Assembly: GCA_023701135.1 (NCBI GenBank)
Contig: JAMPXP010000011.1
Coordinates: forward strand, 1 to 64,000
Direction of reading: 5' to 3'
Length of the DNA: 64,000 nucleotides
Source of the DNA: Desulfobacula sp.
GTDB taxonomy: Bacteria; Desulfobacterota; Desulfobacteria; Desulfobacterales; Desulfobacteraceae
In this document: one piece after another, positions 10,211-38,007 of the stretch
How the letters are laid out: each line of letters starts with the position of its first letter
Position numbering within the stretch: position 1 is the stretch's first letter
Made by a program: the position numbers and the translations under genes
The notes under the pieces: model-generated
What the model saw: the letters and a program-made list of their open reading frames with translations, nothing else
What the model was told of the DNA's origin: nothing
Databases searched by the model: none

Positions 10211-10287
<77 letters not shown>

Positions 10288-11489: not shown

Positions 11490-11566
11490 TGGGGTGAGCG
11501 AAGGGGCTTGAACCCTCGGCCACCAGGGCCACAACCTGGTGCTCTACCAACTGAGCTACGCCCACC
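11490..11566 (-). tRNA. tRNA-His (anticodon GTG)
   Basis: The reverse complement shows the extra 5' G(-1) opposite discriminator C73, which is diagnostic of tRNA-His, an acceptor stem GTGGGCG/CGCTCAC, anticodon stem CCAGG/CCTGG with loop giving GTG, and encoded CCA at 11490-11492. Confidence 0.96.
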
Positions 11567-11949: not shown

Positions 11950-13866
11950 GTGGAAAAAAATATTATTTTAGGCACCGCAGGCCATATCGATCATGGGAAG
12001 ACAAGCCTGGTCCGGGCTTTGACAGGGATTGAAACCGACCGGCTCAAGGAGGAAAAGGAAAGGGGCATCACCATCGAACTGGGGTTTGCCTTTCTTGACC
12101 TTCCCAATGGACAGCGGGTGGGCATTGTGGACATGCCGGGCCATGAAAAATTTGTCAAAAACATGGTGGCCGGTTCCAGCGGTATCGATGTGGTGGCCAT
12201 GGTCATTGCCGCCGATGAGGGGGTCATGCCCCAGACCCGGGAGCATATGGAAATCTGCAACCTCATGGGAATCCGGGACGGCATGATCGCCCTGACCAAG
12301 ATCGACATGGTGGATGAAGACCTCCTGGAACTGGCCCTGGACGATATCCATGAATTTGTGAAGGGAACCTTTCTTGAGGGAAAACCCATTGTCCCGGTCT
12401 CCTCCGTCACGGGCCAGGGCCTTGATGCCTTTGTCAAAACCCTGGAATCCATCTGCACCCATTTGCCGGAGCGTAAATTTTCCTCCATCTTCAGGCTTCC
12501 CGTGGACCGGGTCTTTTCCATGAAAGGCTTTGGTACCGTCATTACCGGCACCCTGGCCTCGGGCAGTATCCATGTCGGGGATGATATCATGGTCTACCCC
12601 CGCCGGATCGTGTCAAAGGTCAGGGGCATCCAGGTTCACAGCTCCGGCGTTGACATTGCAGGCCCCGGCACCCGGACCGCCATCAATTTCCAGGGCCTGG
12701 ACAAGGATTCCGTCAACCGGGGAGATGTTCTTTCCACGCCGGACACCCTCATGGAAAGCTATATGGTGGACGCCCATTTCCATTATTTGAAAAGCAATGG
12801 AAAGCCTGCCAAAAACAGGACCAGGATGAGGTTTCACTACGGCACCAGCGAGATCCTGGGGTATCTCATGCTGCTGGACCGGGAGGAACTGATGCCCGGA
12901 GAAGAAGCCTGCGTCCAGTTCCGCCTGGAATCCCCGGTCTGCTGCATCAAGGACGACCGGTATGTCATCCGGAGCTATTCTCCCGTCAAAACCATCGGCG
13001 GCGGGGCCATATTGAACCCGGCCTCCCGGAAACACAAAACACCGGACAAAGCCGTGATCCAGGGCCTGGAATCCCTGCTCCTGGATGATCCAGAACAGAC
13101 CATCGCCTATTTTCTGTCCTTAAAAGAGCATGAGGGCCTGTCCTTTTCAGAACTGAGGGTCATGACCAATATCCCGGATAAAAAACTGACGGCCGGCCTC
13201 CAGAAAATGCTGGCCAAACAGCAGGTCATCCTGACGGACAAGGAAAAACAGATTTATATCAGCGGCAGTTTCTTCGACGCCTTTAAGGAAAAACTGCTTC
13301 AAAAACTGACTGCCTATCATCAAGAAAACCCCTTAAAGGAGGGCATGCCCACCCAGGAACTGAAATCCAAATTCCAGTATATTGATGATGCCAAATTTTT
13401 TAACCTTTTGTTTGCCAAACTCACCAAGGAAAACCTCATCCTCATTGATAAAAACATCATCAAGCGGTCCGGCCATGAGGTGGAGCTCCAGGTGGATCAG
13501 CACGCGGTCAAGGAAAAAATCAAAAAAATATACACGGACTCGGGCCTGACCCCGCCTTTTTTCAGAACCGTGTGTGAGGACCTGAAGCTGGATAAAAAGA
13601 CCGCCACGGATGTTCTCCACATGCTGGTGGATGAAAAATCCATCGTCAAAACCAAGGATGATCTGTATTTTGACGCCAGGGAAATCCAAAAACTGGAAGA
13701 AAAACTGATCGCCTTTCTCAAGGAAAAGGAGTCCGTCTCAACCCCTGATTTCAAGGATATGATCGGCGTCTCCAGAAAATATATCATTCCCCTCATCGAA
13801 TATTTTGATTCCACCAATCTGACCATACGGGTGGGGGATACCCGGCAGTTGAGACGGAAAGTTTAG
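11950..13866 (+). CDS. selB: Selenocysteine-specific elongation factor SelB
   Basis: SelB delivers Sec-tRNA to the ribosome at UGA codons marked by a SECIS hairpin. The start is taken as GTG at 11950, since the product then opens with EKNIILGTAGHIDHGKT, the family N-terminus; the longer frame from 11779 would translate unrelated sequence overlapping the small upstream gene. The 638 residues comprise an EF-Tu-like GTPase (GHIDHGKT at 11-18, DMPGHE near 60, TKIDMVD near 115), beta-barrel domains, and C-terminal winged helices (roughly 390-638) that bind the SECIS RNA. Length is close to the E. coli protein. A client selenoprotein is encoded at 30757-31074. The stop codon overlaps that of convergent hemW. 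selA, selC and selD are not in the window. Confidence 0.95.
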   Translation: MEKNIILGTAGHIDHGKTSLVRALTGIETDRLKEEKERGITIELGFAFLDLPNGQRVGIVDMPGHEKFVKNMVAGSSGIDVVAMVIAADEGVMPQTREHMEICNLMGIRDGMIALTKIDMVDEDLLELALDDIHEFVKGTFLEGKPIVPVSSVTGQGLDAFVKTLESICTHLPERKFSSIFRLPVDRVFSMKGFGTVITGTLASGSIHVGDDIMVYPRRIVSKVRGIQVHSSGVDIAGPGTRTAINFQGLDKDSVNRGDVLSTPDTLMESYMVDAHFHYLKSNGKPAKNRTRMRFHYGTSEILGYLMLLDREELMPGEEACVQFRLESPVCCIKDDRYVIRSYSPVKTIGGGAILNPASRKHKTPDKAVIQGLESLLLDDPEQTIAYFLSLKEHEGLSFSELRVMTNIPDKKLTAGLQKMLAKQQVILTDKEKQIYISGSFFDAFKEKLLQKLTAYHQENPLKEGMPTQELKSKFQYIDDAKFFNLLFAKLTKENLILIDKNIIKRSGHEVELQVDQHAVKEKIKKIYTDSGLTPPFFRTVCEDLKLDKKTATDVLHMLVDEKSIVKTKDDLYFDAREIQKLEEKLIAFLKEKESVSTPDFKDMIGVSRKYIIPLIEYFDSTNLTIRVGDTRQLRRKV

Positions 13867-23535: not shown

Positions 23536-24435
23536 TCAGGCCCTGGGGTACGGGCAATAGGGTTTTGTCTTCCACCGGTTGTGGACCCAGAAATACTGGT
23601 CCGGATACCTGCGAACCATGGATTCCACGGCAGAGACATAATTCTGGGTATTGATTTCAATATCCTTTATTTTATCCCCGGTTTCGATCAAAGGAACCTC
23701 GGGTAAAAACTCGATGAGGAAACGCTTGCCCTTCCGCACGGTGTACATGGGCACCACGGGGGCCTTGCTTCTCAGGGCCAGTTTGGCAAAACCGCTGTTG
23801 GTGCAGGCCGGTCTTCCGAAAAAGTCCACAAACACCCCCTTATACCAGTCCACATTCTGGTCCAGGAGCGTGCCCATCTCCCCGCCTTCCCGCAATACGG
23901 CATCAATCTTTTCAGACGCTCCGCGCATGGGAATCAGGGTGGCCCCGAACCGTTGGCGCATTTCCCGCATCAGCCGTTCCAGGGGCTTAAAATCGAATTT
24001 CCTGTAAATCCCGTAGGGCTTTTGAACCCCGGCCTTGGGCAGGGCAGCCACCAGGAGTTCAAAATTCCCCATATGGCAGGTTAAAAGAAGAACCCCCCGG
24101 CCTTTTTTCCGGACCGCCTCCACGTATTCCGCACCCTTTACCGTGAAATGGGCGAACAGTTTTTCCCTGGGGATGGGATAGGCCCAGATCACCTCAAACA
24201 GGATGGCGGCCGTATTCTTGAAAATATGAACGGCCATCCTTTCGGCCTCGCGTCTGGAGAATCGGCCCGGATAGGCAAGGTTGAGATTGTCCAGGACAAC
24301 CGTCCGGTGCCGTTTATCCATTTTATACCAGATTAATCCGAAGAGATCTGAAAAAAACTTTAAAACCGGCCAGGGCATCCTCCCCATGAGAGTCACCATC
24401 AGTTTTAAGAATCTGAATATCCTGTCATCGTTCAT
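23536..24435 (-). CDS. lpxL: LpxL/HtrB-type lipid A acyltransferase
   Basis: This 299-residue protein of the lysophospholipid acyltransferase superfamily adds a secondary acyl chain to lipid A at the inner membrane. The catalytic HX4E motif appears as HMGNFE, with a hydrophobic N-terminal segment, GVLLLTCHMGNF before it, and GVFVDFFGRPACTNSGFAKLA after it. The YFWVHNRWKTKP ending is diagnostic of the family. It overlaps lpxK by 4 bases, which fits sequential action: LpxK, then Kdo transfer, then acylation. LpxL and LpxM specificities cannot be separated by eye. Confidence 0.87.
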   Translation of the reverse strand: MNDDRIFRFLKLMVTLMGRMPWPVLKFFSDLFGLIWYKMDKRHRTVVLDNLNLAYPGRFSRREAERMAVHIFKNTAAILFEVIWAYPIPREKLFAHFTVKGAEYVEAVRKKGRGVLLLTCHMGNFELLVAALPKAGVQKPYGIYRKFDFKPLERLMREMRQRFGATLIPMRGASEKIDAVLREGGEMGTLLDQNVDWYKGVFVDFFGRPACTNSGFAKLALRSKAPVVPMYTVRKGKRFLIEFLPEVPLIETGDKIKDIEINTQNYVSAVESMVRRYPDQYFWVHNRWKTKPYCPYPRA

Positions 24436-25568
24436 TTTTTTTCCATTTTAGAGACTAAAAAATCTTCAAATTTTTCCGGGTCTTCAAATCGTATCCGGAT
24501 GCCGATAACCAGAACATCCGCCGCCCATTCGATAGTCTTATCGATTTTCACCCCGTCTTTTTCCGTGGTCAGGATGAGATCGGCTTTTTTTTCCACGGCC
24601 ATCCTGTTGATAGTTAAAAAATCTGCTGTCTTATACCTGTGATGGTCATTAAATTCAAGATGATAAAGGATATTTATGCCATGCTCCGCCATGGAGGCAT
24701 AAAAGGCGCGATTATCGGCCAGGCCCGAAAAAAGGACGGCGGTTCTCCCTTTTAAGGCAGCCAGGTCTGACCCAGGGTCCGGCGATTTCTTTTCTTTTTT
24801 GATCCATCGCAGGATATAGGGCTGGTGAACGGTTTTAAAAAACGGCCGGTCCGGATAAAACCGCAATACCGCCTCCATCTGAGTCCGGCTCGCATTTTCC
24901 TCGGGGCATCTGGTAAACACGAGGGCATCGGCTCTTTTGCCCGAACTCTGGGGCCTTTCCCGCAGGCGGCCGGCCGGAAGAAGCCTTGTATTGCCCAGGG
25001 GACGGTTAAAATCAAACAACAGAATATCCAGATCCCTTTTCAACCGTATATGCTGGAACCCGTCATCCAGGACAACGGCCTCGGGCCGGGGCTCCAGTGA
25101 ATCCAGGGCTCTCATCCCGGCCCGGAGCCGGTCTTTACCCACCACCACGGGGCATAAGCGCCGGGCGGCCATCATAAAGGGTTCGTCCCCGCATTCGTCG
25201 GGACTTGAAAAAACATGGCCGCCATCAAAAACCACGAGCGAATCTTCCTTATAACTTCCCCCGTACCCCCGGCTCACCACCACCGGTTTTTTCCCGATCT
25301 TTTTTAACAATTCGGCCGTATAAAGGGTCATGGGGGTTTTGCCGGTTCCACCGGCCACGATATTGCCGATGGAAACCACAAAACAGGGAAGGGCCCCCTG
25401 CCTTAAAATCTTTTTTTGATACAGCCATAGCCGGAACCCCACTCCCAGCCCATAGAGGCGGGACAGGACCACCAGAGCCCATTCCAGGCTCAAGGGGACA
25501 GGGGTATAATCCTGCCCTGAAATTTGTGTAATCCGGTCCTTGATTCTGTCCAGCCGCTCTTTAAACAA
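24432..25568 (-). CDS. lpxK: Tetraacyldisaccharide 4'-kinase (LpxK)
   Basis: LpxK phosphorylates the 4' position of the lipid A disaccharide at the inner membrane. The Walker A loop is SIGNIVAGGTGKTP, with VVSRGYGG, DEPFMMA, and DDGFQHIRLKRDLDILLFD, all family hallmarks. The start is set at TTG 25568, preceded by GGAGAGG and overlapping the waaA stop; this gives 378 residues. A longer frame to 25610 lies inside waaA and has no better site. Placement between waaA and the acyltransferase matches the pathway order. Confidence 0.9.
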   Translation of the reverse strand: MFKERLDRIKDRITQISGQDYTPVPLSLEWALVVLSRLYGLGVGFRLWLYQKKILRQGALPCFVVSIGNIVAGGTGKTPMTLYTAELLKKIGKKPVVVSRGYGGSYKEDSLVVFDGGHVFSSPDECGDEPFMMAARRLCPVVVGKDRLRAGMRALDSLEPRPEAVVLDDGFQHIRLKRDLDILLFDFNRPLGNTRLLPAGRLRERPQSSGKRADALVFTRCPEENASRTQMEAVLRFYPDRPFFKTVHQPYILRWIKKEKKSPDPGSDLAALKGRTAVLFSGLADNRAFYASMAEHGINILYHLEFNDHHRYKTADFLTINRMAVEKKADLILTTEKDGVKIDKTIEWAADVLVIGIRIRFEDPEKFEDFLVSKMEKK

Positions 25569-26844
25569 TATGAAGCCTCTCCAGGTTCCGGAGTATCTTT
25601 TGGACCGCACCGGAATGATTCAAAAACACCTCATGATTCAACCGGCCCATCCGGGTCTGAAGATCCGGATTTCCCAGCAGGAGGCCCAGTTCATGGGCCA
25701 GTTCCGTTTCAGACCCGACCTGCTTCGAACCGCCGTGGTCCTTCAGCAGGGTGGAGATTAAAAGGAAATCCGACATATCCGGCCCAAACAGGGCAGGTTT
25801 TAAAAAGGCCGCCGGTTCCAGGGGGTTATGGCCCCCTTCCGGCACCAGGGAGCCCCCGATATAGGCGGCATGGCAAAGGGCATAGAGGCGCGAGAGGACT
25901 CCCATTTCATCCACCAGGACAATATCACTGGCCAATGAAGGCGTCTGTGACAGCAGGGATACGGAAAGGCCCATGGATAGGATATGCGGCAGCAAGGCAT
26001 GACACCGCCGGGGATCCCGCGGGGCAAGGATCATCATCAGGGCCGGGAATTTGGATTTCAATTGTTGATAGACCCTGAACAGGATATCCTCTTCTCCCTC
26101 GTGGGTGCTGCCGGCAACCAGGACAAGGGTTTGTGCCCGGATATTCAGCCGCGCCCCCATGGCCGAAATAAAGGAGCCCTCCACATCTTCCGCAGCCTGG
26201 TCGAATTTCAGATTGCCGGTGACCTGGATTTTTTCCGGATTGATCCCCAGGCCTTGGAACCTGGCGGCGTCCAGGGGGCTCTGGACCATGATCTCCGTTA
26301 AACAGGAAAACACCGTTGAAAAAAACCGTTTAAACTGCAGGTATCCCTTGAATGACCGCTCCGACAGCCTGGCATTGACCAAGACCACCGGTATCCGCCG
26401 TTGTCTCATTTCATACAGAAAATTGGGCCAGATATCGGTCTCTACAATGATCACAACGTCAGGGTCGATCAGGGTTGCGATTTTCCGGACGGAATATCCA
26501 AAATCAAAGGGGAAATATCCCAATTGATCCACCATCCCCGGTTTTAACAATAATTGCCCTGCCGTCTTAAACCCGGTCCGGGTGGAAGCGGTAAAAACCA
26601 TCCCGGCCTGTCCGCAGCCATACTTTAAGGCCTTGACCAGCGGGACCGCGGACCTGACCTCACCGACGGAAAGGGCATGGACCCAGATCCTTTTTTCGCC
26701 CGGTTCCTTGTTCCTCCAGGCGGTTCCAAGGCCAAACCGCAATAACAGGCTGACCCTTCTTTTTTCCGAGAACAGATAGATCAGCGGAAAAAAGAGAACA
26801 AAGACAGCCAGGAAAAAATTCATCAATAGGGTATAAAACATCAT
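25561..26844 (-). CDS. waaA: Kdo transferase WaaA (GT30)
   Basis: The 427-residue product is a membrane-anchored GT30 transferase that attaches Kdo, or here probably 8-amino-Kdo, to lipid IVA. An N-terminal anchor covers about residues 5-25. KRIWVHALSVGEVRSAVPLV, VVIIVETDIWPNFLYEM with its acidic catalytic region, VTGNLKFDQ, GSTHEGEE and GGSLVPEGGHNPLEPAA follow in family order. Start is the first of two adjacent ATGs. It overlaps lpxK by 8 bases. The number of Kdo units added cannot be read from the sequence. Confidence 0.93.
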   Translation of the reverse strand: MMFYTLLMNFFLAVFVLFFPLIYLFSEKRRVSLLLRFGLGTAWRNKEPGEKRIWVHALSVGEVRSAVPLVKALKYGCGQAGMVFTASTRTGFKTAGQLLLKPGMVDQLGYFPFDFGYSVRKIATLIDPDVVIIVETDIWPNFLYEMRQRRIPVVLVNARLSERSFKGYLQFKRFFSTVFSCLTEIMVQSPLDAARFQGLGINPEKIQVTGNLKFDQAAEDVEGSFISAMGARLNIRAQTLVLVAGSTHEGEEDILFRVYQQLKSKFPALMMILAPRDPRRCHALLPHILSMGLSVSLLSQTPSLASDIVLVDEMGVLSRLYALCHAAYIGGSLVPEGGHNPLEPAAFLKPALFGPDMSDFLLISTLLKDHGGSKQVGSETELAHELGLLLGNPDLQTRMGRLNHEVFLNHSGAVQKILRNLERLHIV

Positions 26845-26866
26845 CTTGACAGGTTTCCCGATTTTT

Positions 26867-27943
26867 TTATCCTGTATGCATCAGGTAAATCAAACCTGTG
26901 CTGAAAAAAAAGATATTGGTCATCCAGGCGCTGATAAGGGGCGGAAGAATGCCTCCATATCCCAGGGAAATGCAAAACCCATACATGATCCAGTAAAGGG
27001 CTGCAATCACAACCCCAAGGGCAATGGTCACCGGCAGATTTTTTTTTGCAAAGGATCTCATTCCCGTAGCCGCTCCCGTCAGGACCATGATGATGCAGAT
27101 AAAGGGAAAGGCTATTTTCCCGTTGAGATCCACCTCATAGGGGGTGGCGTCATAGCCTTCCGTTTTGACCTTTCGGACATATTTTCTCAACTCGGAAAAG
27201 CTCATCTCTTCGGATTTTTTGGCCACCGTTTCAAGGTCCTCGGGTTTAAAGGTCAGCGGGATGCTCATTTTCTCATGGGTCTTTACCGTATAGTCTTCTG
27301 AATCCTTTGCATGGACCTGCTGGATCAATTTTTCAAAAACCCATTCACCGTCGATATAAACCCCCGTCCTTGCATCTATGCGGGATTCAAGCCCGAAATG
27401 GTCGCCCAGGGATGTGATGGTGACGCCTGCAACGGATTTCCGGACAGGATCATAATAATTGATATGGATCAGGCGGTTCTCGGATTTGATCCAGATATCC
27501 TCCCGGGCCACAGCCATTTGGTGCTTTTTCCGGATCACATTGTTTTCAATTTCAAATACCCTGGACATGGACACCGGGATAAGGGTTTCCCCGAGAAAAA
27601 ACATGATAAACCCCAAAACCAGGGCCACGCATACTGCCGGTTTAATCAGGAAATAGGCATTGATCCCGCTGGACCGGATGGCCAGAAGCTCATTGTTCCG
27701 GTTCATGATCCCGAAAACCGTGATCGTTGCCAGAAGGATGCCCGCCGGCGTCAACTGGACAAACATGAAGGGCAGTTTCAAGAGTACATAATGGAGGGCG
27801 CCGAGCATGGAAATATCGGATTTTAAGAATCTTTCCATTCTGGACAGGTAGTCGATAAATACAAACAGGACAAGAATGACCACTTGAATGGCGGAAAAAT
27901 ACCTGATGAATTCCTTTAACCAGTATTTGTTTAAGCAGGACAT
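26867..27943 (-). CDS. lptG: LPS export permease LptG
   Basis: This 358-residue protein of the YjgP/YjgQ family forms, with LptF, the inner-membrane part of the LPS exporter driven by LptB. Six membrane segments are visible: three in the first 120 residues and three at the end (about 260-355), flanking a large beta-jellyroll periplasmic domain. FGIMNRNNELLAIRSSGI is the coupling region contacting the ATPase. GGAGG precedes the ATG, 4 bases after lptF. The lptB and lptA/C genes are not in the window. Confidence 0.9.
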   Translation of the reverse strand: MSCLNKYWLKEFIRYFSAIQVVILVLFVFIDYLSRMERFLKSDISMLGALHYVLLKLPFMFVQLTPAGILLATITVFGIMNRNNELLAIRSSGINAYFLIKPAVCVALVLGFIMFFLGETLIPVSMSRVFEIENNVIRKKHQMAVAREDIWIKSENRLIHINYYDPVRKSVAGVTITSLGDHFGLESRIDARTGVYIDGEWVFEKLIQQVHAKDSEDYTVKTHEKMSIPLTFKPEDLETVAKKSEEMSFSELRKYVRKVKTEGYDATPYEVDLNGKIAFPFICIIMVLTGAATGMRSFAKKNLPVTIALGVVIAALYWIMYGFCISLGYGGILPPLISAWMTNIFFFSTGLIYLMHTG

Positions 27944-27947
27944 GGGG

Positions 27948-29126
27948 TCAGGTCCTCCTTTGGATACGGGTTCGGAGAACCGTTATGAAGTTCCGCAGAA
28001 AGACCGGCATCAGCACCGGCTTTTCCTTTGCATTTCTGACCAGAAGAAAAATCCCGGCGCAGCCCATGATGATATCCGGCAGCCACATGGCAAGACCCGG
28101 AGGGAAATTCCCGGTTTCCCCGGCCGACCATCCGGCTGCCAGAAAAAAATAATAGAGCAGAAAAAAGAAAACCCCCAGGCCGAATCCTGAAGATTTTTGC
28201 AGGGAATTGGATTGAACTCCCAGGGGAAAGGCCAGCAGTCCCAGGGAAAGACAGGCAAAGGGGATGGAAAATTTTTCATGAAGCTGCATCAGGGCCGAGC
28301 GCAGGAGTTTGTCATCGGTCCCGCCGGTTTTAACCATTCGGATGAGATCCGTGAGGCTTTCCTCGCTCAGGCGTTTTGCAATTTGCACCTCACCCCTGCC
28401 GGTGTCATTCAAGTCAATATTAATATCATAATTCCCGAAACGGATATGGTTGACGGACCCTTCATCCTCATTGACCTGGTTGATCACGCCATCCAAGAGC
28501 CGTATGGTGTATATGGCGTCTTCTGTGCGGATGAGCTCTCCTAAAGGCGCGATGGAAATGCTGACCACCCCTTTGGTTCTCCGGTCTTCAATAAAAACAT
28601 CCGTAATTTTTTTTGTTTTCATGTCTACCTGGGATATATAGATCATGACATTTTCAAGTTCTGAATTGAACTGCCTTTCCTGAAGGGCCATATCCATATT
28701 GGACCTGGCCAGTTCCAGGGTCTTTTTTTTCAGCGAAAGCCTGCCCCAGGGAACTCCGGCAACAGTGACCATGGAGGTCAGAACCACACCGGCCAGGGAA
28801 AAAATCAATACCGGCGGCAAAAGGCTGTAAAGGGAAACCCCGGCTCCCTTCAGGGCAAGCAATTCATTTTCCCCGGACATGCGCATAAAGGTCAGGAGAA
28901 TGGCGATCATGACGGACATGGGAATGGTAAATTCCATGAACCGGGGCAGCATATAGGCCATTAAAAGGAGGATGGAAGACATATCCGCATTAAAATTCAC
29001 CACCTTGTTAGTAATTTCAGGGATTCGCATCATAAGAAATACAAAAGTCAGAAAGAAAAGGCTGATGATAAAAGGCGAAAGAAATTCTCTGAAAATATAT
29101 CGGTTTATAATGGATAAAGGTTTCAT
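27948..29126 (-). CDS. lptF: LPS export permease LptF
   Basis: The 392-residue partner of LptG has the same layout: three N-terminal membrane segments, a periplasmic domain and three C-terminal segments. The cytoplasmic coupling helix appears as MRMSGENELLALKGAGVS. IINRYIFREFLSPFIISL at the start is typical of LptF. It is first in the minus-strand operon lptF-lptG-waaA-lpxK-lpxL-waaF-GT9-GT2, so LPS completion and export are probably co-regulated. No strong ribosome site is visible before its ATG. Confidence 0.9.
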   Translation of the reverse strand: MKPLSIINRYIFREFLSPFIISLFFLTFVFLMMRIPEITNKVVNFNADMSSILLLMAYMLPRFMEFTIPMSVMIAILLTFMRMSGENELLALKGAGVSLYSLLPPVLIFSLAGVVLTSMVTVAGVPWGRLSLKKKTLELARSNMDMALQERQFNSELENVMIYISQVDMKTKKITDVFIEDRRTKGVVSISIAPLGELIRTEDAIYTIRLLDGVINQVNEDEGSVNHIRFGNYDINIDLNDTGRGEVQIAKRLSEESLTDLIRMVKTGGTDDKLLRSALMQLHEKFSIPFACLSLGLLAFPLGVQSNSLQKSSGFGLGVFFFLLYYFFLAAGWSAGETGNFPPGLAMWLPDIIMGCAGIFLLVRNAKEKPVLMPVFLRNFITVLRTRIQRRT

Positions 29127-29217
29127 TTCAACGGAAAATATAAGGTAGCGGGCAATTAGTCAAGCCAAGACCAAAGATTAGATTCCCATAAGATCAATTT
29201 CATGATAATAAAAAGAC

Positions 29218-29853
29218 ATGAAATGTGTGATCATCGCCAATGGGGATCTTGAATATTCGGAAAAAATTATCGGCATTATCCGGAATGGCGGACGCATCGT
29301 CTGCGCAGACGGCGGCATAAGACATTTAAAAGCCCTCGGGCTTTTACCCCATATCATTATCGGCGATTTTGATTCTGTCCTGCCCGAAGACACATTATAT
29401 TTTAAAGAAAAAAAAATACAATTCATTTCCCACCCCTCCCGGAAAAATGAGACCGATACGGAACTCTGCGTTTCATGGGCACTTTTGAATCATGCAACGG
29501 ATATCACCCTTTTAGGAGCCACGGGCACACGGCTGGATCATACCCTTGCCAATGTCTTTCTTTTGAAAAAACTTGCCGGACTGGGCATCCCCGCAAGAAT
29601 CATTGATAAACACAATACCATTCATGTCGTGATGGACCAAATTGAATTAAAGGGCCGGCCGGGTGATCTTTTATCCCTTCTCCCGGCCACGGAAAGGGCT
29701 GCCGGGATAACGATCAAAGGGCTTGAATATCCTTTAATGGATGCGACTGTGGAAATGGGGTCTTCTTTGGGCATCAGCAATGTGTTTAAAGAAACCACCG
29801 CCTTTGTTTCGGTCAGGCAAGGGGCCTTGATGGTGATCCAATCACAGGACTAG
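29218..29853 (+). CDS. thiN: Thiamine diphosphokinase
   Basis: The 211-residue enzyme converts thiamine and ATP to thiamine diphosphate in the cytoplasm. ADGGIRHL, then IIGDFDSV, KNETDTELCVSWAL and LLGATGTRLDHTLANVFLL follow the family order, with a C-terminal beta domain ending GISNVFKETTAFVSVRQGALMV. The length is standard. It is a single gene, divergent from lptF, and its TAG shares the palindromic CTAG with the convergent lipoprotein gene. No TPP riboswitch is visible upstream. Confidence 0.92.
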   Translation: MKCVIIANGDLEYSEKIIGIIRNGGRIVCADGGIRHLKALGLLPHIIIGDFDSVLPEDTLYFKEKKIQFISHPSRKNETDTELCVSWALLNHATDITLLGATGTRLDHTLANVFLLKKLAGLGIPARIIDKHNTIHVVMDQIELKGRPGDLLSLLPATERAAGITIKGLEYPLMDATVEMGSSLGISNVFKETTAFVSVRQGALMVIQSQD

Positions 29854-30701
29854 GATTTTTTATCCTTTGGTTTTTCTTTTCCACCCTTTGCCTCTTCCCC
29901 AGGGGCAGGCGGCGGGGGAGGCGTATGCTCAATGACAAATTCTTCAACCCTGTCCATATCGGCGGCAAGGATGACGTTTTCCACTGCGATTTCTTTGATC
30001 ATCCCTTCCATATAGGGGTTCAGCAATTGAACAAGTTTTTTGCACTGGGCCGAGATATCATCAAAACTCTTGACATCTTCATAAACCAGGGAGCTGAAAA
30101 AAATAATGATGCTGTCATGGATTTTCGGATGAAGGGGAGGAATTTTCTGACCCGGCATCAGCTCCTTAAAGACCATATTCATTTTCAGACACAGGTATCT
30201 GTCCTTATCGTTTGACCGGTTTTTGTTTAAATTTACAACAACCGGATCCAAAGGCATTTTTAATGATAAAACAGGTTCGGCGTTTCCTGCTTTTTCCATC
30301 CGGGTCCTGGTCCATACCGCCATGGCTCCGTTTTCATCTTTAAACCGCATCCGGTTTTCCGTCAGTTCAACGATATCATAAACCAGGGTACGGTTCTTTT
30401 CCCAGACATCTTCGATATCCGACGCCATGACCGTAAAAATCATCTGCCCTTTCTCAATATGCCATGTTCCCTTGGCATTTCCCTTGGACTTAACGATTTT
30501 GGAAGTTCCCTCGGCAATTTTTACAGAAGAAGTCCATTCTCCTTTCTGGTTGGTATACAAAAGGATATATGCTCTGTTTTTTTCTTGTGTCCAGTTTCCT
30601 AGGGCGAGTTCAGCCTGGGATATTTCTTTTTCTCCGCAGCCGCTGAAAAGAAGTGCACAAACAATACCTGTAATACACAAACAAACAGAATGGTTTTTCA
30701 T
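29850..30701 (-). CDS. Lipoprotein with FliL-like C-terminal domain
   Basis: This 283-residue protein starts with a lipoprotein signal: a hydrophobic core and lipobox LFSGC with the lipidated Cys at 22. Residues about 30-135 look like a small beta-barrel of lipocalin/stability-test type (ALGNWTQEKN, GTWHIEKGQMIFTV). Residues about 150-255 resemble the FliL family, which binds flagellar stator complexes: PLDPVVVNLNKN, RYLCLKMNMVFK, HPKIHDSIIIFFSSL and YMEGMIKEIAVENVI. A Pro-rich and Lys-rich tail ends it. No flagellar genes are nearby. The domain calls are from pattern recognition; function is unknown. Confidence 0.7.
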   Translation of the reverse strand: MKNHSVCLCITGIVCALLFSGCGEKEISQAELALGNWTQEKNRAYILLYTNQKGEWTSSVKIAEGTSKIVKSKGNAKGTWHIEKGQMIFTVMASDIEDVWEKNRTLVYDIVELTENRMRFKDENGAMAVWTRTRMEKAGNAEPVLSLKMPLDPVVVNLNKNRSNDKDRYLCLKMNMVFKELMPGQKIPPLHPKIHDSIIIFFSSLVYEDVKSFDDISAQCKKLVQLLNPYMEGMIKEIAVENVILAADMDRVEEFVIEHTPPPPPAPGEEAKGGKEKPKDKKS

Positions 30702-30756
30702 TGTGGTTGGAAAGGGCAGGCAGAATACCTACCCTTTCAACATCCTTAAAAAGAAG

Positions 30757-31074
30757 TTAGTCTCCACAGGAGCCGCCGGAGCCGCAGCTCCCGCAACCTG
30801 ATTTCCCAAGATCCAGGTTGGAGTCCAGATGGAACCCCATCCCTGTAAAATCAATTTTAATGGTTTCCGCTTTTTCCATAAATTCTTTATCAACAACAAA
30901 TTTCAGGCCTTTTACATCAAAGGTGTCATCGGTATCTTTAGGCTCATCCAGAGCCATGGCAAGGGATGGCCCGCCTCAGCCGCCTGAATTGAGAAAGATC
31001 CGAATCGGGGTGGGTGTTTTCCCCTGGAAATAGTCATCGATCTGAGTTTTTGCAGGATCAGTCAAATTAATCAT
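30757..31074 (-). CDS. HesB/IscA-like selenoprotein with in-frame UGA (Sec 33)
   Basis: Read through TGA at 30976-30978, one frame gives a 105-residue IscA/HesB-like protein: SGG-U-GGPSLAMALDEPKD, where Sec 33 replaces the first of three conserved cluster cysteines, then KSGCGSC with C94 and C97 near the end. The family carries or assembles Fe-S clusters. AAGGAGAG precedes ATG 31074. Both sides of the UGA match the family with no shift, a SECIS-like hairpin follows, and selB is present, so recoding is much likelier than a broken gene. HesB-like selenoproteins are known from Sec-rich deltaproteobacteria. Standard gene callers would split it into two pieces. Confidence 0.88.
30941..30955 (-). 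promoter_or_regulatory. Candidate bacterial SECIS hairpin
   Basis: On the coding strand GGCTC-TGGAT-GAGCC forms a 5-bp perfect stem with a 5-base loop. The loop begins 25 bases after the UGA and has G as its second base, within the usual bounds for bacterial SECIS elements. It would recruit SelB. Confidence 0.6.
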
Positions 31075-31244
31075 GTTATATCTCTCCTTATATTTAATTT
31101 TTTCAGGATGACTCAGCCTGAATGCCATAATTCTAAACACACCCTTGCCGTCTGTCAATGCTTTGAAGCCTGTTTTGTCGGAAAGACGGGCCATTACTGA
31201 TTCCGGGCTTGCCTTATCCCCCATGAGTATTGTAAACTGGTCCC

Positions 31245-32309
31245 ATGAAATTGTCGGTTCCCTTCATACCGGACAAGCCATATCTCCGTTTTCTTAAAAA
31301 AAATATCCAGTGCCTGGAGTCCGTTTATTTCCCCCTTGTTTCAGGACCGGTTCTGGATTCACGAATCCGGGTTAAAGAAGCTGACACGGATGCTTTGGTC
31401 AAAGCGCTGAAACAGTTTAAAACCTTCAAAAAATACTGCCTTCTCAATTCCCGGTTCATTCACCCCCAGGCCTATCATGATCCTGATTTTTTGAGCCAAA
31501 CCATGGATAACCTTGAATTTTTAGCCCTTCATGCCGGTATTAACGGCTTTGTCTTTTCCGATGCGTATTTTCTCAATGCCCTGTCCCGGACAAGCCGGAA
31601 CATTATTCCGGATCTTGAGGCTGTGCCGGGCATCAACTGCATGATGGATTCTTCCCAAAAAGCCTTTGCTTTTTTCAACCTGATTGAAGACGCAGGGTTT
31701 AAAATGCCCGGAAAAATAGCCCTGGACCGGTCCTTGAACAGGGACCCGGCCCGGCTTGAAAAAACCGTCCGGAAAATCAAAAACCGTTATCCTTCCATGA
31801 AAATAGAAGTCCTGGCCAATGAAGGGTGCATGGATCTCTGTCCCTTCAAACTCACCCATGATGCCCAGATTTCCTTTTCCAATCTGGGCCTTTCAAAGAC
31901 AACCCATGATCTGACCAACAGGACCCTGGGCTGCCATGCCTATTTTTTTAAAAACCCGGAACGATTTTTCCTATCCCCGTTTATCCGGCCTGAGGATTTA
32001 AGCTTTTACAAAGATATCGCCGACACGGTCAAGCTCTGCGGAAGAACCCTGGGATCCAAATTCCTCATGAATTGTATCACCGCCTACAGGGACGCCTCCT
32101 ATGACGGCAACCTGCTCTCCCTCATGGATGCGGCTCACTGGTTGTCGGACCACATCCATATCGACAACAAAAAACTTGATCCGGGATTCCTGTCCGTGTT
32201 AACCTCCTGTTCAAAAGATTGCAGAAGCTGTTCGACATGCCGCAATTTTTTATTAACCACATCCAGGCGCAAACCCTTTAAAATTAAAGCCTATGAGGAC
32301 TATCTATGA
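31245..32309 (+). CDS. U32 peptidase-like protein
   Basis: The 354-residue protein resembles the U32 peptidase-like TIM-barrel group, most members of which have RNA- or cofactor-modification roles rather than proven protease activity. Seen: an early YCLLNSRF strand, MDSSQKAFAFFNLIEDAG, LDRSLNRDPARLEKTVR, the conserved cysteine block LANEGCMDLCPFKLTHD, FLSPFIRPEDLSFYKD and YDGNLLSLMD. A cysteine-rich end CSKDCRSCSTC could bind an Fe-S cluster or zinc. galE starts within its stop region (ATGA overlap), so the two are co-translated. A metabolic link with galE is not obvious. Confidence 0.65.
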   Translation: MKLSVPFIPDKPYLRFLKKNIQCLESVYFPLVSGPVLDSRIRVKEADTDALVKALKQFKTFKKYCLLNSRFIHPQAYHDPDFLSQTMDNLEFLALHAGINGFVFSDAYFLNALSRTSRNIIPDLEAVPGINCMMDSSQKAFAFFNLIEDAGFKMPGKIALDRSLNRDPARLEKTVRKIKNRYPSMKIEVLANEGCMDLCPFKLTHDAQISFSNLGLSKTTHDLTNRTLGCHAYFFKNPERFFLSPFIRPEDLSFYKDIADTVKLCGRTLGSKFLMNCITAYRDASYDGNLLSLMDAAHWLSDHIHIDNKKLDPGFLSVLTSCSKDCRSCSTCRNFLLTTSRRKPFKIKAYEDYL

Positions 32310-33322
32310 AAATTCTGGTTACCGGAGGCGCAGGGTATATCGGAAGTCACACCTGTGTTGAACTCTTAAATGAAGACTACGAGGTTGTCGTCCTTGACAA
32401 TCTTTCCAACAGCTCGGAGGAATCTTTGAACCGGGTCAGGCGGATTACGGGCCGGCCCTTTGCATTTTACAAAACCGATCTCCTGGATAAAAAAGCGACG
32501 GCCGCCATTTTTTCGGATCATCAGATTGATGCCGTTATTCATTTTGCCGGGCTGAAAGCGGTGGGGGAATCGGTTCTCATTCCTTTGAAATATTTTCACA
32601 ACAATATCACCGGCACCTTAAACCTTCTCGAGGCCATGGGGGATGCCGGAGTAAAAAACCTGGTGTTTTCTTCCTCTGCAACGGTCTATGGTGATCCTGC
32701 CTCCCTTCCCATCACAGAGGATTTCCCCCTGTCGGCCACCAACCCCTATGGCCGGACAAAGCTCATGATTGAAGAAATCCTGAAAGATCTCCACCGTTCC
32801 GATGAAACCTGGAACATTGCCCTCCTGAGATATTTCAACCCTGTGGGAGCCCATTCAAGCGGTGAGATCGGAGAAGATCCGGCCGGGATTCCCAACAATC
32901 TCATGCCTTATATTTCCAGGGTGGCCGTGGGCTCCCTGCCCGAGGTCAATGTATTCGGCCATGATTATCCGACCCCGGACGGAACCGGGGTCCGGGATTT
33001 TATCCATGTGGTGGACCTTGCCCTGGGCCACATCCGGACCCTTCCAAAACTCTATGCCCGGCCGGGCATCGTGATTTATAACCTCGGCACGGGTCAGGGG
33101 TATTCGGTCCTTGACATGATCAAGGGATTTGAAGATGCCTGCGGGAAAAAAATCCCTTATAAAATGGGGCCAAGGCGTGCCGGAGATGTCGCCGCCTGCT
33201 GGTCCGATCCTTCAAAGGCCTTTGATGAACTGGGCTGGAAGGCCCAAAAATCACTCGATGATATGTGCAGGGACACCTGGCACTGGCAAAGAAAAAATCC
33301 GAACGGATTCCGGAAAAACTGA
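32306..33322 (+). CDS. galE: UDP-glucose 4-epimerase
   Basis: The 338-residue short-chain dehydrogenase-type enzyme interconverts UDP-glucose and UDP-galactose, supplying sugars for LPS. The NAD-binding GGAGYIGSH opens the protein, SSSATVYGDP and the catalytic YGRTK (YxxxK) follow, and YFNPVGAHSSGEIGEDP and NLGTGQGYSVLDM are GalE signatures. The length is standard. It overlaps the U32-like gene by 4 bases. Confidence 0.94.
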   Translation: MKILVTGGAGYIGSHTCVELLNEDYEVVVLDNLSNSSEESLNRVRRITGRPFAFYKTDLLDKKATAAIFSDHQIDAVIHFAGLKAVGESVLIPLKYFHNNITGTLNLLEAMGDAGVKNLVFSSSATVYGDPASLPITEDFPLSATNPYGRTKLMIEEILKDLHRSDETWNIALLRYFNPVGAHSSGEIGEDPAGIPNNLMPYISRVAVGSLPEVNVFGHDYPTPDGTGVRDFIHVVDLALGHIRTLPKLYARPGIVIYNLGTGQGYSVLDMIKGFEDACGKKIPYKMGPRRAGDVAACWSDPSKAFDELGWKAQKSLDDMCRDTWHWQRKNPNGFRKN

Positions 33323-33336
33323 GGGGAGAGATCATC

Positions 33337-34959
33337 ATGGATGGCTATATCCATAATCTGAAAACAAGTATACGAACCGGAAAACTCGGGCAGGCAAAGG
33401 CCCTGCTCGCCGGCATGTCTTCACGGCCGGAACCTGAAAAAAAGGAAGCCTTCGAAATCCTTGCCCTCACCTCGGGCAAGGCCGCCTTTGAGCTGCTGTC
33501 GGACCTGGCCCCTGAAACCCGCCAAGACCCGGATATGCATGAGAGGCTGGTCAGGCTCATCACGGACCGGGCCCATCTTGATTTCCGGTTCGCCCTGATT
33601 TTATTGAACCTTGTGGACCGGAATACGGCTTTCAATCTCTCCCCTCTTTTAAGGCATATCCTGACCAATGGAACGGATAAGGATCTTTTAAACGCCATCA
33701 TCCGCGCCGCAGGAAAATTGCACATGGAAAGCATGATCGATGATATTGCGGAGTTTATTTTTTACGATGACCCGATTCTGAAAACCGAGGCCGTGAGGGC
33801 TCTTGAGCGGATCGGAACACCAAAGGCCTGTGAAAAACTGGAACAGGCCTCAAAAACCAGAAAATCCGATCAGGACATCCTGGATGCCCTGGATGTCCTG
33901 AAGTCGAAGGAACCCGTCGCCACCGCCGCTGCCCCTTCCCCGGCTCATACCCCCGACAGCCTTGAGAACGATCTGGACCGGCTTTCCTCTGTGGATGTCA
34001 ATGAAAGGTTCAAGGCCTTTATCACCCTGTCTGAAAAAGGGGCGGAACTGTCTCCCATCCTTTTGAAACATTTGAAAAAAGACCCGGACCACGACCTCAT
34101 GATCAATATCCTCCGCCTGATTTCAAGAACCATTCCCCTGGAAGCGGTGAATGATCTCTTTGACCTCATCGCCCGGAAAGAAACGGCCCCTGCCGTCAGA
34201 TTTACCGCCTACACCGCACTTGAGTCTTTCCCGGAACTTGAATCCGCCGCTTCGGTGATCCAGGGCATTTCAGACCCTTCCCTGCCGGTCCGGCTGGCTG
34301 CCATGAAGGTCCTGGATAAGAACCTGTCTGATTTTGTCTGCGCCGAGATTAAAAACAGGATCGAATCCGGCACCAAAAAGGGAGAGGCCCTGGCCGAAAC
34401 CGTTTTAGACGCCCGGGCCGGGCATATCATTGAATATCTCATGGTTTCGGATACCTTTTCCTATATGGCCTCCAATTATCTGACCCGGACAGCCCCGGTT
34501 CAGGTCCTGGATACCTTCATTCAAATCCTGGAAAGCCGAAATCTGAAATCCACTGCGAAAAAATACCTGGATATCCGGGAAAAAAGGGCCGCCCGGGATA
34601 CGGACAGGGTCATTGTCATCAGCTCCTATGAATCCATCCTGAATGCCTATTGCAGGATTCTTTACACATCCGGTCTATCAAGCCTGACCTTTCGGCGGCC
34701 CCAGGATGCCTTTGAAGCCATGGTCTCCCAAAAGCCCGCCGCCGTCATCTGTGATCTTTTTTTAAATGATATGACGGGCATGACCCTTGCCGGAGAAGTC
34801 AGGGGCCTTTATTCAACCGAGGACGTCCCGGTCATCATTTCCGCCCTTCAAAAGAACCTGGATAAGCCTCTTCTCCAAGCAGAACTGGACCGGGCAGGGG
34901 TCAACGCCCTCTGGGAGTTTCCGCCAAAACCCGCCCAGATCAAATCCTGGATCAAATAA
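33337..34959 (+). CDS. HEAT-repeat protein with C-terminal receiver-like domain
   Basis: The start at 33337 follows GGGGAGAG; a longer frame from 33265 lies within galE. The 540-residue product has HEAT-like helical repeats (about 20-215), a Pro/Ala linker near 205-220, further helical repeats (about 220-420) and a C-terminal receiver-like domain (about 430-540). In the receiver the usual paired acids after the first strand are absent (VIVISSYES), but an aspartate stands at the acceptor position in AVICDLFLND. It may therefore be a degenerate, possibly unphosphorylated, signalling scaffold. It lies 14 bases after galE and 11 bases before an ATP-grasp gene. Confidence 0.78.
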   Translation: MDGYIHNLKTSIRTGKLGQAKALLAGMSSRPEPEKKEAFEILALTSGKAAFELLSDLAPETRQDPDMHERLVRLITDRAHLDFRFALILLNLVDRNTAFNLSPLLRHILTNGTDKDLLNAIIRAAGKLHMESMIDDIAEFIFYDDPILKTEAVRALERIGTPKACEKLEQASKTRKSDQDILDALDVLKSKEPVATAAAPSPAHTPDSLENDLDRLSSVDVNERFKAFITLSEKGAELSPILLKHLKKDPDHDLMINILRLISRTIPLEAVNDLFDLIARKETAPAVRFTAYTALESFPELESAASVIQGISDPSLPVRLAAMKVLDKNLSDFVCAEIKNRIESGTKKGEALAETVLDARAGHIIEYLMVSDTFSYMASNYLTRTAPVQVLDTFIQILESRNLKSTAKKYLDIREKRAARDTDRVIVISSYESILNAYCRILYTSGLSSLTFRRPQDAFEAMVSQKPAAVICDLFLNDMTGMTLAGEVRGLYSTEDVPVIISALQKNLDKPLLQAELDRAGVNALWEFPPKPAQIKSWIK

Positions 34960-34970
34960 GGGAATCGGCC

Positions 34971-35750
34971 TTGAACATCAAGCCTATTGCCCTAGGAGCA
35001 AGGTTGAGGGGAGTTCCTTCCATTCATACCCTGGGGTTCAAACCTGTTTTTGAGGCCTATACCCCCCAAGAACAGCGGCTGATACTGGAGGCGGAAAAAA
35101 TCTATTACCCCACCGCCTTTTATGCAGATCTCTTTAATGCCATGGGAAAACCGACCTTTCCCAGCTTTCATACCTATAAATTTGCCATGGACAAGATAAA
35201 ACAGACGGCTATCTTTCACATGCTTGGTATTCCCCACCCTAAAACCAGGGTTTTTTATGGGGAAACGCAGAAAAAAACCATTTTGGATTTTTTTTCTTTC
35301 CCATTTATCGCCAAAAAAGCCAGGGGCTCTGCCAGAGGCAGGGGCGTTTTTCTGATACACAACAGGGAAGACCTTGCCCTTTATCTTAAACACCACAGTC
35401 CTGCCTATATCCAGGAATATCTGCCCATTGACAGGGATATGAGAATCATCATTATGGGAAAAAAAATACGGCTGGCCTTCTGGCGGGTCGGAGACCCGGA
35501 CAATTTTAAAACCAATCTTTCCCAGGGCGGGGCTGTCTGTTTTGATTCCCTGCCCCGGGAGGCCCTGGACCTTGCCGAAAGGACGGCTTTAAGCTGCGGC
35601 TGGGATGATGTGGGCATTGATATGGTGATGCATGGGGGCCGGCCCTATGTTCTGGAAGGCAATATGAAATATGGAACAAAAGGATTTCATACGGCCGGCA
35701 TTGATTATAAAACAATGCTGGCAGGGCTGATCCTTAAGGGTGAACTCTAA
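34971..35750 (+). CDS. RimK-like ATP-grasp protein
   Basis: This 259-residue protein starts at TTG 34971, preceded by AAGGGA. The ATP-grasp fold is visible: a central KTRVFYG and FIAKKARGSARGRGVFLI (ATP-binding lysine and glycine-rich loop), YIQEYLPIDRDMRIIIMG, and the metal-binding acidic end DDVGIDMVMHGGRPYVLEGNMKYG. This order fits RimK/GshB-type ligases, which join an amino acid or other amine to a carboxylate. The substrate is unknown. The tight spacing to the HEAT/receiver gene suggests a joint function. Confidence 0.78.
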   Translation: MNIKPIALGARLRGVPSIHTLGFKPVFEAYTPQEQRLILEAEKIYYPTAFYADLFNAMGKPTFPSFHTYKFAMDKIKQTAIFHMLGIPHPKTRVFYGETQKKTILDFFSFPFIAKKARGSARGRGVFLIHNREDLALYLKHHSPAYIQEYLPIDRDMRIIIMGKKIRLAFWRVGDPDNFKTNLSQGGAVCFDSLPREALDLAERTALSCGWDDVGIDMVMHGGRPYVLEGNMKYGTKGFHTAGIDYKTMLAGLILKGEL

Positions 35751-35753
35751 ATT

Positions 35754-36287
35754 TTACAGAAGCCCTGCATCCATATCATCCTCTTCCCATTCGGTCAGGT
35801 ATTTTTTGATATCCGCATATGCTGAATTACCCCGGGGTTTGAACAAAAGATAGCCCAACTGTTCCATATTCTTTGCAAGACTATGGAAAAATGCCCGTTC
35901 AACAAATTCTGTGGTTGGCTTTTCTTCAGGCAGGGTCAGCCCTTCAAAAATATGCCGGGTCAAATGGCCTTCCGGGATAAAACAATCGCAAACCGAAGTC
36001 TTCCATTCTTCCAGGAAATTGGCAATTCTCCACGGGATCAGCTCCTCAGGCCTGAATATGGTTGTATTTTGGGGATTGAACGGCGAGGAGACGATCTGCA
36101 TTTTCCGGTTGTCATATTGAATTAATGATTTTAAAAGAACCTCCATATGATTGGAAAAAATCCATTCCTCGGGTTCCAGCAGAACCGGCGGAAATTCGCT
36201 GCTGGTCAGCGCAAATCGAAATGGCCCCTGATTTTTCCAAAACAGTTTGAATTCCTTTGAATTTGAAAGTATCTGCCGAGTCGGCAT
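35754..36287 (-). CDS. Protein of unknown function
   Basis: The start is set at ATG 36287, eight bases after AAGGA; upstream in-frame ATGs lack ribosome sites. The 177-residue product is soluble and acidic at its end (EWEEDDMDAGLL). It has PPVLLEPEEWIFSNHMEVLLKSLI and FVERAFFHSLAKNMEQLGYLLF, both likely helices, and a cysteine pair CDC near residue 100. No family is recognised. It faces the ATP-grasp gene, with only three bases between their stop codons, and lies upstream of the divergent NlpC/P60 gene. Confidence 0.6.
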   Translation of the reverse strand: MPTRQILSNSKEFKLFWKNQGPFRFALTSSEFPPVLLEPEEWIFSNHMEVLLKSLIQYDNRKMQIVSSPFNPQNTTIFRPEELIPWRIANFLEEWKTSVCDCFIPEGHLTRHIFEGLTLPEEKPTTEFVERAFFHSLAKNMEQLGYLLFKPRGNSAYADIKKYLTEWEEDDMDAGLL

Positions 36288-36656
36288 GGCACCCATCCTT
36301 ATTGTATCCGTACACATCATTTTTTTTTGGGCCTCTACCCTAATCCGGATCTTTGTACCCAGATTTTTTTCACAATGCAATAGCAGAACCAAACCAATGG
36401 ATTCTTTGTCCGTCTCGAAATATTCCCGGGTTCAATTTGTAAAACATGAATTTTTGGGTTGACAAGGGACTTAAAAATATTCTATTTCCCCAGGAAACCG
36501 GAAGAATTCCCGGTAAAAAAAGCCTTATGCCCTTAATAACACAGGATAGGGCAAAAGACGGGACAGAGAATGATTTAATTTTTTATGCAGGAGAGGCAGA
36601 AAGACGGAAAGGTAAAATTCCGTTTGGTATAAACAAACGCATAGTGACGGGAAAAA

Positions 36657-37913
36657 ATGCACAGACTGCTCAACCCTCTTTTTCGGAAAACTTGTACCTG
36701 GTTTGTTTATGGCTTGATCGTCATCATGTCCGCTTCCATTGCTTTTGGCGTTGAAACCAAGACCGATTCCTCTCCCCTATCCACCGTCGGCCTGACGGAT
36801 CAACAGTTTGAAGACAGATTGAAACAATTTATCGGCATCCCCTATCGCCGGGGGGGAACCACGACCACGGGCCTGGATTGTTCCGGTTTTGTCAGACTGG
36901 TCTATGATCAGATCTTCGGCATTGAATTGCCCCACAGTTCCGTGGCCCAGTTTAAATTCTCAGATCTGAAAAAAATTGATAAACGGGAAATGCAGCCCGG
37001 GGATTTGTTGTTTTTCGGTAATGCAGGGAAAAAGAGGATTAACCATGTCGGAGTCTATATCTCGGACAATAAATTTATTCATGCCAGCAGCACTGAGGGG
37101 ATTAAGGTATCAGGTCTGGATGAGAGCTACTGGAAGAAAAGATTTATGGGGACCAAGCGCCATGAAGACTTGAGTTCCGGTTTTGATACCGATGGAATCC
37201 GGTTTGAGACCTCGTTGCAAATACCGGTTCATGAGAATGGAAGTATCATGAGCTACCGGCGGGACGACTTCAGTGCAAATGATCTATCCCTGCAGGAAGA
37301 TTTAGAGAATCCTGCCTCCGGAACCCTTAGCTTAAATGATTCCCGGCATTATCTGCATGAAATCGGTTATGCCCATTCCCTGTCCGACGGGCTTGATATC
37401 AATGTGAGCGCCGTTCATGAAAATTTCGACGTATATACGGCCTGGCCTGAATCAGACGCCGATGCCGGCTATCTGGCCTATGACTCGGTATACGACACGG
37501 CTGACAGGCTCGGGGTCAAACTGGCCGGTGCCTTCCAACCCAGCCGCTGGCTCAGAATCACCCCCTCCATTACCTATTATGACTATGCCAAAGAGAATGA
37601 AGATATCTTAAATGCCCCGGAATGGTTGTTCGGCTTGAACACTGTTCTGTTGCCCTTCCATAAACAATGGTCCTTGTCCATGCTGCTCCAGTATTCTGAA
37701 AAAGATGATTTTAAAGATCTCAATTCCCCTTACAGCCGGTTCAGTTCTCTTGATCTGGCCATCAAGCTGGGGATCCATCTTACCGACAATCTTCAATTCT
37801 CCATCATGGGTGAGCATGATAAACGCTCAGCCGCCTATGGGATTTCCGGAGACTCTCTGATTCTGGATTCCAAGACCAGCAATGTTTCCATGTCCTTTGA
37901 TTTCAGCTATTAA
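36657..37913 (+). CDS. NlpC/P60 hydrolase with barrel-like C-terminal domain
   Basis: The 418-residue precursor has a signal peptide (hydrophobic about 14-30) and an NlpC/P60 papain-like domain (about 45-170) with catalytic C75 in GLDCSGFVRL, H130 in INHVGVYI and H142 in FIHASS. This family cuts D-Glu-DAP bonds in peptidoglycan. The rest, about 180-418, is unlike usual NlpC partners: alternating polar and hydrophobic strands such as LRITPSITYYDY, WSLSMLLQYSEK, LDLAIKLGIHLTDNLQFSIMG, and a terminal MSFDFSY with aromatic last residue, as in outer-membrane beta-barrels. Around ten strands could be drawn. The fusion suggests an enzyme held at the outer membrane. Start codon lacks a strong ribosome site. 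Confidence 0.78.
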   Translation: MHRLLNPLFRKTCTWFVYGLIVIMSASIAFGVETKTDSSPLSTVGLTDQQFEDRLKQFIGIPYRRGGTTTTGLDCSGFVRLVYDQIFGIELPHSSVAQFKFSDLKKIDKREMQPGDLLFFGNAGKKRINHVGVYISDNKFIHASSTEGIKVSGLDESYWKKRFMGTKRHEDLSSGFDTDGIRFETSLQIPVHENGSIMSYRRDDFSANDLSLQEDLENPASGTLSLNDSRHYLHEIGYAHSLSDGLDINVSAVHENFDVYTAWPESDADAGYLAYDSVYDTADRLGVKLAGAFQPSRWLRITPSITYYDYAKENEDILNAPEWLFGLNTVLLPFHKQWSLSMLLQYSEKDDFKDLNSPYSRFSSLDLAIKLGIHLTDNLQFSIMGEHDKRSAAYGISGDSLILDSKTSNVSMSFDFSY

Positions 37914-37979
37914 TAAAAAGACCGCTCTTATCCTTTCAGTCCGGTAAAACGATTAAAATTTGCCCCTGATTGTTTTTCC

Positions 37980-38007
37980 TTGACCTTGAATTTATCTTTT
38001 GTTAACT
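37980..38007 (+). promoter_or_regulatory. Possible promoter of the biotin operon
   Basis: TTGACC at 37980-37985 is followed after 16 bases by TTAACT at 38002-38007. The -10 region would lie inside the BirA-type operator, so bound BirA would block polymerase. The match of the -10 is only fair. Confidence 0.4.

Follow-up and report, generated by a model that had tools for sequence, protein, structure and literature searches.

The gene at positions 30757-31074 (minus strand) of the window, the 64,000-nucleotide stretch of Desulfobacula sp. DNA analyzed here, is, as judged from sequence comparisons, a real selenoprotein gene with an in-frame UGA coding for selenocysteine (Sec), and the observation made in a preliminary description of this DNA is thereby confirmed. 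Sec insertion is the clear reading of three findings taken together, namely the Sec machinery of the genome, an alignment column that holds either UGA or a Cys codon, and a hairpin just beyond the UGA; incorporation of selenium in this organism is almost certain. The gene itself is ordinary, being a member of an already catalogued family. The whole explanation favored here, that the product is an IscA/HesB selenoprotein with Sec at residue 33, an IscA-like fold, and a role as an Fe-S or iron carrier, is given a probability of about 0.6.

Reading Frame and Expression Signals

When the single in-frame TGA at 30976-30978 is read as Sec, the minus-strand frame extends from an ATG at 31074-31072 to a TAA at 30759-30757 and encodes 105 residues, with the UGA (residue 33, U33) in the context FLNSGG-U-GGPSLAMALDEP. 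Calling with table 11 instead divides the frame into two separate minus-strand ORFs, 30976-31224 and 30757-30957; the preliminary description was thus correct both in joining two minus-strand pieces across one TGA, as the read-through translation bears out, and in anticipating that gene callers would report a broken gene. The ATG is preceded by a Shine-Dalgarno-like AAGGAGAG (31082-31089, minus strand), read from the sequence, and by a σ70-like promoter, TTGACA-17-TAGAAT (31130-31158, minus strand), which agrees with the consensus at 11/12 positions; it should be noted that this is a consensus match only and that the region contains three such matches where 1.3 are expected. Near the 3′ end, the codons for Cys94 to Cys103 (30766-30795, minus strand) specify a C-terminal tail rich in cysteine (Cys94, Cys97, and Cys103).

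Selenocysteine Machinery

The genome from which the window derives (4.8 Mb, 98.87% complete) contains the tRNA-Sec, selA, and selD that the proposal calls for, with scores of 76.8 bits (cut-off 47), 612.9 (cut-off 267.9), and 369.8 (cut-off 125), respectively, and also selB, the gene for the Sec-specific elongation factor, at 11962-13857 on the plus strand of the window (TIGR00475, 352.9 bits, cut-off 242.25, with SelB winged-helix domains). These calls use over-cut-off matches only, because many of the 14 control genomes give matches below the cut-off: any match was seen in 14 for tRNA-Sec, 4 for selA, 14 for selB, and 14 for selD, as against 5, 1, 2, and 2 over the cut-off. The selD match (contig C39, 8198-9124, minus strand) itself carries one in-frame TGA, as in Sec-containing SelD, and the selB gene, which shares the window with the selenoprotein gene, is located close to tRNA-His (11490-11565, minus strand) and tRNA-Arg (10211-10287, minus strand).

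Conservation of the UGA Codon

The TGA is beyond what chance would provide, because the same alignment column holds TGA in 28 and TGC in 3 of 31 loci. The splitting of the frame by a standard ORF caller is what would be seen if the gene were broken, its TGA having arisen by nonsense mutation or through a sequencing error, but this reading is very improbable and was rejected because of the hairpin and because the TGA column is conserved. TGA occupies the U33 column in all 79 of the loci read by script from a set of 80 named loci, and it is visible in the translation of the 80th (L133); the sequence after the UGA is conserved as well as that before it in an alignment of 35 proteins; and the hairpin has near-fixed synonymous sites in the Sec genes only. 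The 80 named loci are the best 80 of 215 relatives found in a contig scan and therefore lean toward close kin, their best-segment identities to the window protein being 57-95%. Among these best 80, the titles are from Desulfobacterales such as Desulfobacula, Desulfotignum, Desulfospira, and Desulfobacter, the closest being 95% identical, together with several assigned to Deltaproteobacteria or Proteobacteria only, one Desulfarculaceae, and one Spirochaetes MAG.

Homologues that have no TGA have Cys at the U33 column, so that the Cys expected opposite the UGA was found. For comparison of Sec and Cys genes, 59 loci were reduced to 52 distinct proteins (40 with TGA and 12 with Cys); five loci were repeats, two Cys loci (L066 and L075) went unread, and a third Cys locus, L076, is one codon out of register. 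One alignment comprised 35 of these 52 proteins, and another 47 of the 80 named loci; a DNA alignment of three sequences served solely to check the register.

The family is widespread in the order, with a match to the NF038090 model over the cut-off in 168/194 genomes and in 54 of the 58 nearest genomes, a set that overlaps in part with that of the order. The description of HesB-like selenoproteins as established is supported by the published record, but that of a small family is not borne out in this lineage. Of the best 150 NF038090 matches in the order, 136 have one TGA and 14 have none (rows counted by eye); weaker matches lie outside this group, and the TGA share among them could differ. 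Tandem copies of the family, one with TGA and one without, are present in one genome (G163:C16:55359-56163), and similar close pairs are present in G238, G239, and G338. Matches in G007, G043, G063, and G282 contain two TGA codons; in G063 (L047), the match extends beyond the normal stop, which is the second TGA.

The Hairpin 3′ of the UGA

The sequence GGCUC-UGGAU-GAGCC (30941-30955, minus strand) can form a 5-bp hairpin of the bacterial SECIS type with a G in the second place of its loop, which starts 25 nucleotides past the UGA. Its loop (UGGAU), its 5 bp, and its distance of 25 nucleotides are within the limits for bacterial SECIS elements stated in a section of a recent review (a loop of 3-9 nucleotides that has G as its first or second nucleotide, a stem of 4-16 bp, and a distance of 16-37 nucleotides from the UGA; PMC13188914). 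Two tRNAs, and no other family, reach the Rfam gathering score in the window.

All five pairs are present in 36 of the 40 distinct Sec genes but in none of the 12 Cys homologues, the best of which has four of five, and in 77 of the 79 named loci read. The codons that build the hairpin include silent choices that are near-fixed in the 40 Sec genes, GCT in 39/40 (its share of the Ala codons in the rest of these genes is 17%), CTG in 40/40 (26% in the rest), and GAG in 38/40 (38% in the rest), and not near-fixed in the Cys genes. When synonymous codons were resampled, a mean of 2.0 and a maximum of 8 of the 40 genes retained the full hairpin (2000 draws). It should be recognized that the 40 genes do not constitute 40 independent tests, since they share ancestry, and that the weight of this evidence lies in the family, because the window gene taken alone has a 6% chance of its hairpin under the codon null. 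The contrast between Sec and Cys genes is the stronger argument.

Family Assignment and Predicted Fold

The 105-residue read-through product matches NF038090 (IscA_HesB_Se) at 114.8 bits (cut-off 85) over profile positions 1-101 of 101, and Pfam Fe-S_biosyn (PF01521) at 33 (cut-off 26.3). These matches and the structural comparisons below bear out the IscA/HesB-like identity first proposed. In its full-length match to NF038090 the protein shows no difference from the family, in whose members the first ligand position is filled by Sec or Cys. It was not placed in TIGR01911 (HesB_rel_seleno), for which its score of 32.9 bits is under the cut-off of 66.35. This model, the one given for HesB-like selenoproteins in passages of two reviews (PMC13188914 and PMC9312934), describes proteins of the same superfamily with the Sec motif UxGP (as given in PMC13188914), to which the window protein is related as a different branch. 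Two further likenesses are drawn from published descriptions: DVU_1382 of Desulfovibrio vulgaris is described as a HesB family protein with TGA (in PMC1914089), and Syntrophobacter, Syntrophus, and Geobacter sulfurreducens have HesB-like entries in tables of PMC1794560.

Relatives of solved structure recognized by sequence are Aquifex AQ_1857, Escherichia coli IscA (YfhF), and HI1723, with SufA matched weakly (E 0.31). In the pairwise alignment, U33 faces Cys35 of E. coli IscA (residue number counted from the alignment), in agreement with the proposal that Sec replaces the first cluster cysteine. A structure prediction from the single sequence reached a pLDDT of only 42.5, and a model from 48 aligned sequences (pLDDT 75.2) was used in its place; residues 91-102, in the tail that holds the other presumed ligands, are below 50. 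The top Foldseek matches of this model are the IscA structures 1r94, 1x0g, and 1s98 and the SufA structure 2d2a. The window protein thus shares with the canonical carriers IscA, SufA, and ErpA (TIGR00049; PDB 1s98, 1x0g, 2d2a) a predicted fold, the location of U33 at the place of Cys35, and a Cys-containing C-terminal tail, but differs in having Sec for Cys, in its TIGR00049 score (42.4 bits, under the cut-off of 58.8), and in having no directly adjoining isc or suf gene. The Cys-rich tail, which the preliminary description noted in this copy, is not special to it but is the usual C-terminal motif of the family, Cys94 and Cys97 being conserved at ≥90% in the alignment of 35 family proteins.

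Fe-S Carriers and Scaffolds in the Genome and the Order

No genome of the order (0/194) reaches the TIGR00049 cut-off for canonical A-type carriers; that cut-off is reached in 5/118 genomes drawn from the phylum and in 8 of the 14 controls (8 with any match). In the source genome, TIGR00049 has no match besides the window gene (E 0.01), the SUFBD core has none at E 0.001 (it is matched in 14/14 controls), and four NifU_N domains, of the NifU/IscU-type scaffolds, are over the cut-off. A search of the same genome with PF01521 gave nothing at E 0.001 and missed the window gene itself, which is over the cut-off when tested as a protein, so that distant carriers could be overlooked and the whole-genome family negatives are not watertight; the absence of canonical carriers is based on TIGR00049. 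On these searches, the bacterium seems to have no second protein of this type, and the lineage may have no other A-type-carrier-like protein.

Discussion

In the proposed mechanism, SelB carrying Sec-tRNA would bind the hairpin just 3′ of the UGA and Sec would be inserted at residue 33. The product would adopt an IscA-like fold in which Sec33 stands where IscA has its first cluster cysteine; Cys94 and Cys97 of the tail would be further ligands, and the Fe-S cluster would be bound through selenium. It would most likely act as a carrier of Fe-S clusters (or iron) from an IscU/NifU-type scaffold to client proteins. This carrier role, although unproven, is the most economical reading for the Sec protein, which may be the selenium-dependent Fe-S carrier of the lineage.

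Several observations weaken the carrier role. The tail that holds the other presumed ligands is modeled at a pLDDT below 50. No recognized Fe-S assembly gene adjoins the window gene: of the two neighbors put to Pfam, one has a FliL domain and the other has no match. In addition, 26/194 genomes of the order have no NF038090 match over the cut-off, and 5 of the 123 of good quality have none even at E 0.001. The HesB-like gene of Methanococcus maripaludis can be disrupted according to PMC11097638, and the mutant still fixes nitrogen, an unpublished observation mentioned there; the M. maripaludis protein may belong to another branch than the window protein. Finally, the minimal MIS system, as outlined in part of PMC12192291, consists of a scaffold and a desulfurase and has no carrier, so that a genome may do without one.

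The FliL-domain gene lies downstream (29850-30701, minus strand; 33.6 bits, cut-off 24.6), has by eye a lipoprotein-like start, and has a tblastn relative in 36/80 named loci. The divergent upstream gene (31245-32309, plus strand) encodes 354 residues with no Pfam match at E 0.1 and, by eye, a Cys-rich C-terminal end, and has a tblastn relative in 23/80. A macro-domain gene, assigned to PF01661 from a single tested representative, occurs close to the HesB gene in 8/21 sources by ORF clustering (loci L056, L058, L060, L062, L063, L065, L068, and L070), and tblastn found it in 12/80 named loci and in 12/30 and 10/20 loci of two further sets that share loci; it is not among the clustered ORFs of the window (24001-38000). 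Genomic context is overall a weak clue to function.

The protein might instead be a redox enzyme or thiol switch, in which Sec33 would form a selenenylsulfide with a Cys of the tail and metal binding would be incidental. The three cysteines of the tail, the lack of an adjoining Fe-S assembly gene, and the location of some relatives near macro-domain, nitroreductase, or NDK genes are consistent with such a role, as is the statement in a 2026 review that most uncharacterized selenoproteins are probably redox proteins (a passage of PMC13188914). However, the Sec, which aligns with IscA Cys35, is outside any CxxC-like motif, and the predicted fold matches those of Fe-S carriers; a redox role is possible but somewhat unlikely. 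Storage or sensing of iron, selenium, or another soft metal, as opposed to carriage of Fe-S clusters, is improbable. Metal binding has been suggested for the selenoproteins SaoB, SaoC, and UXX-star (in a passage of PMC13188914), but none of six neighboring proteins, two in the window and four from relatives, is a transporter or belongs to a metal-handling family as judged with Pfam, and nothing specific to such a role was found here.

HesB-like selenoproteins have had a place in surveys from 2005 onward (entries in PMC1088965 and PMC1242214), appear also in sections of PMC1794560, PMC9312934, and PMC13188914, and were reported earlier in deltaproteobacteria (PMC1914089 and PMC1794560, in part). 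The M. maripaludis protein was found by mutagenesis and 75Se labeling, and the function of HesB-like selenoproteins is called unclear in the same account (a portion of PMC11097638). Among the open-licence papers listed, none describes a Sec-containing Fe-S carrier in its title or in the opening of its abstract, and in PMC2682760, on A-type carriers, the word selenocysteine occurs once, in the title of a reference.

The window gene is thus a well-supported member of its family in a lineage in which the family is present in 168 of 194 genomes and the canonical carrier cut-off is reached in none, and it makes it directly testable, in cultured relatives with the gene such as Desulfospira joergensenii and Desulfobacter latus, whether an Fe-S carrier uses a selenolate to ligate its cluster. 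A more far-reaching proposal, that the Sec-HesB protein has displaced IscA, SufA, and ErpA as the A-type carrier of the order, with Fe-S maturation made selenium-dependent through the selenolate ligand, is speculative and at present rather doubtful. If it were true, the maturation of Fe-S proteins in these mostly sulfate-reducing bacteria would depend on selenium.
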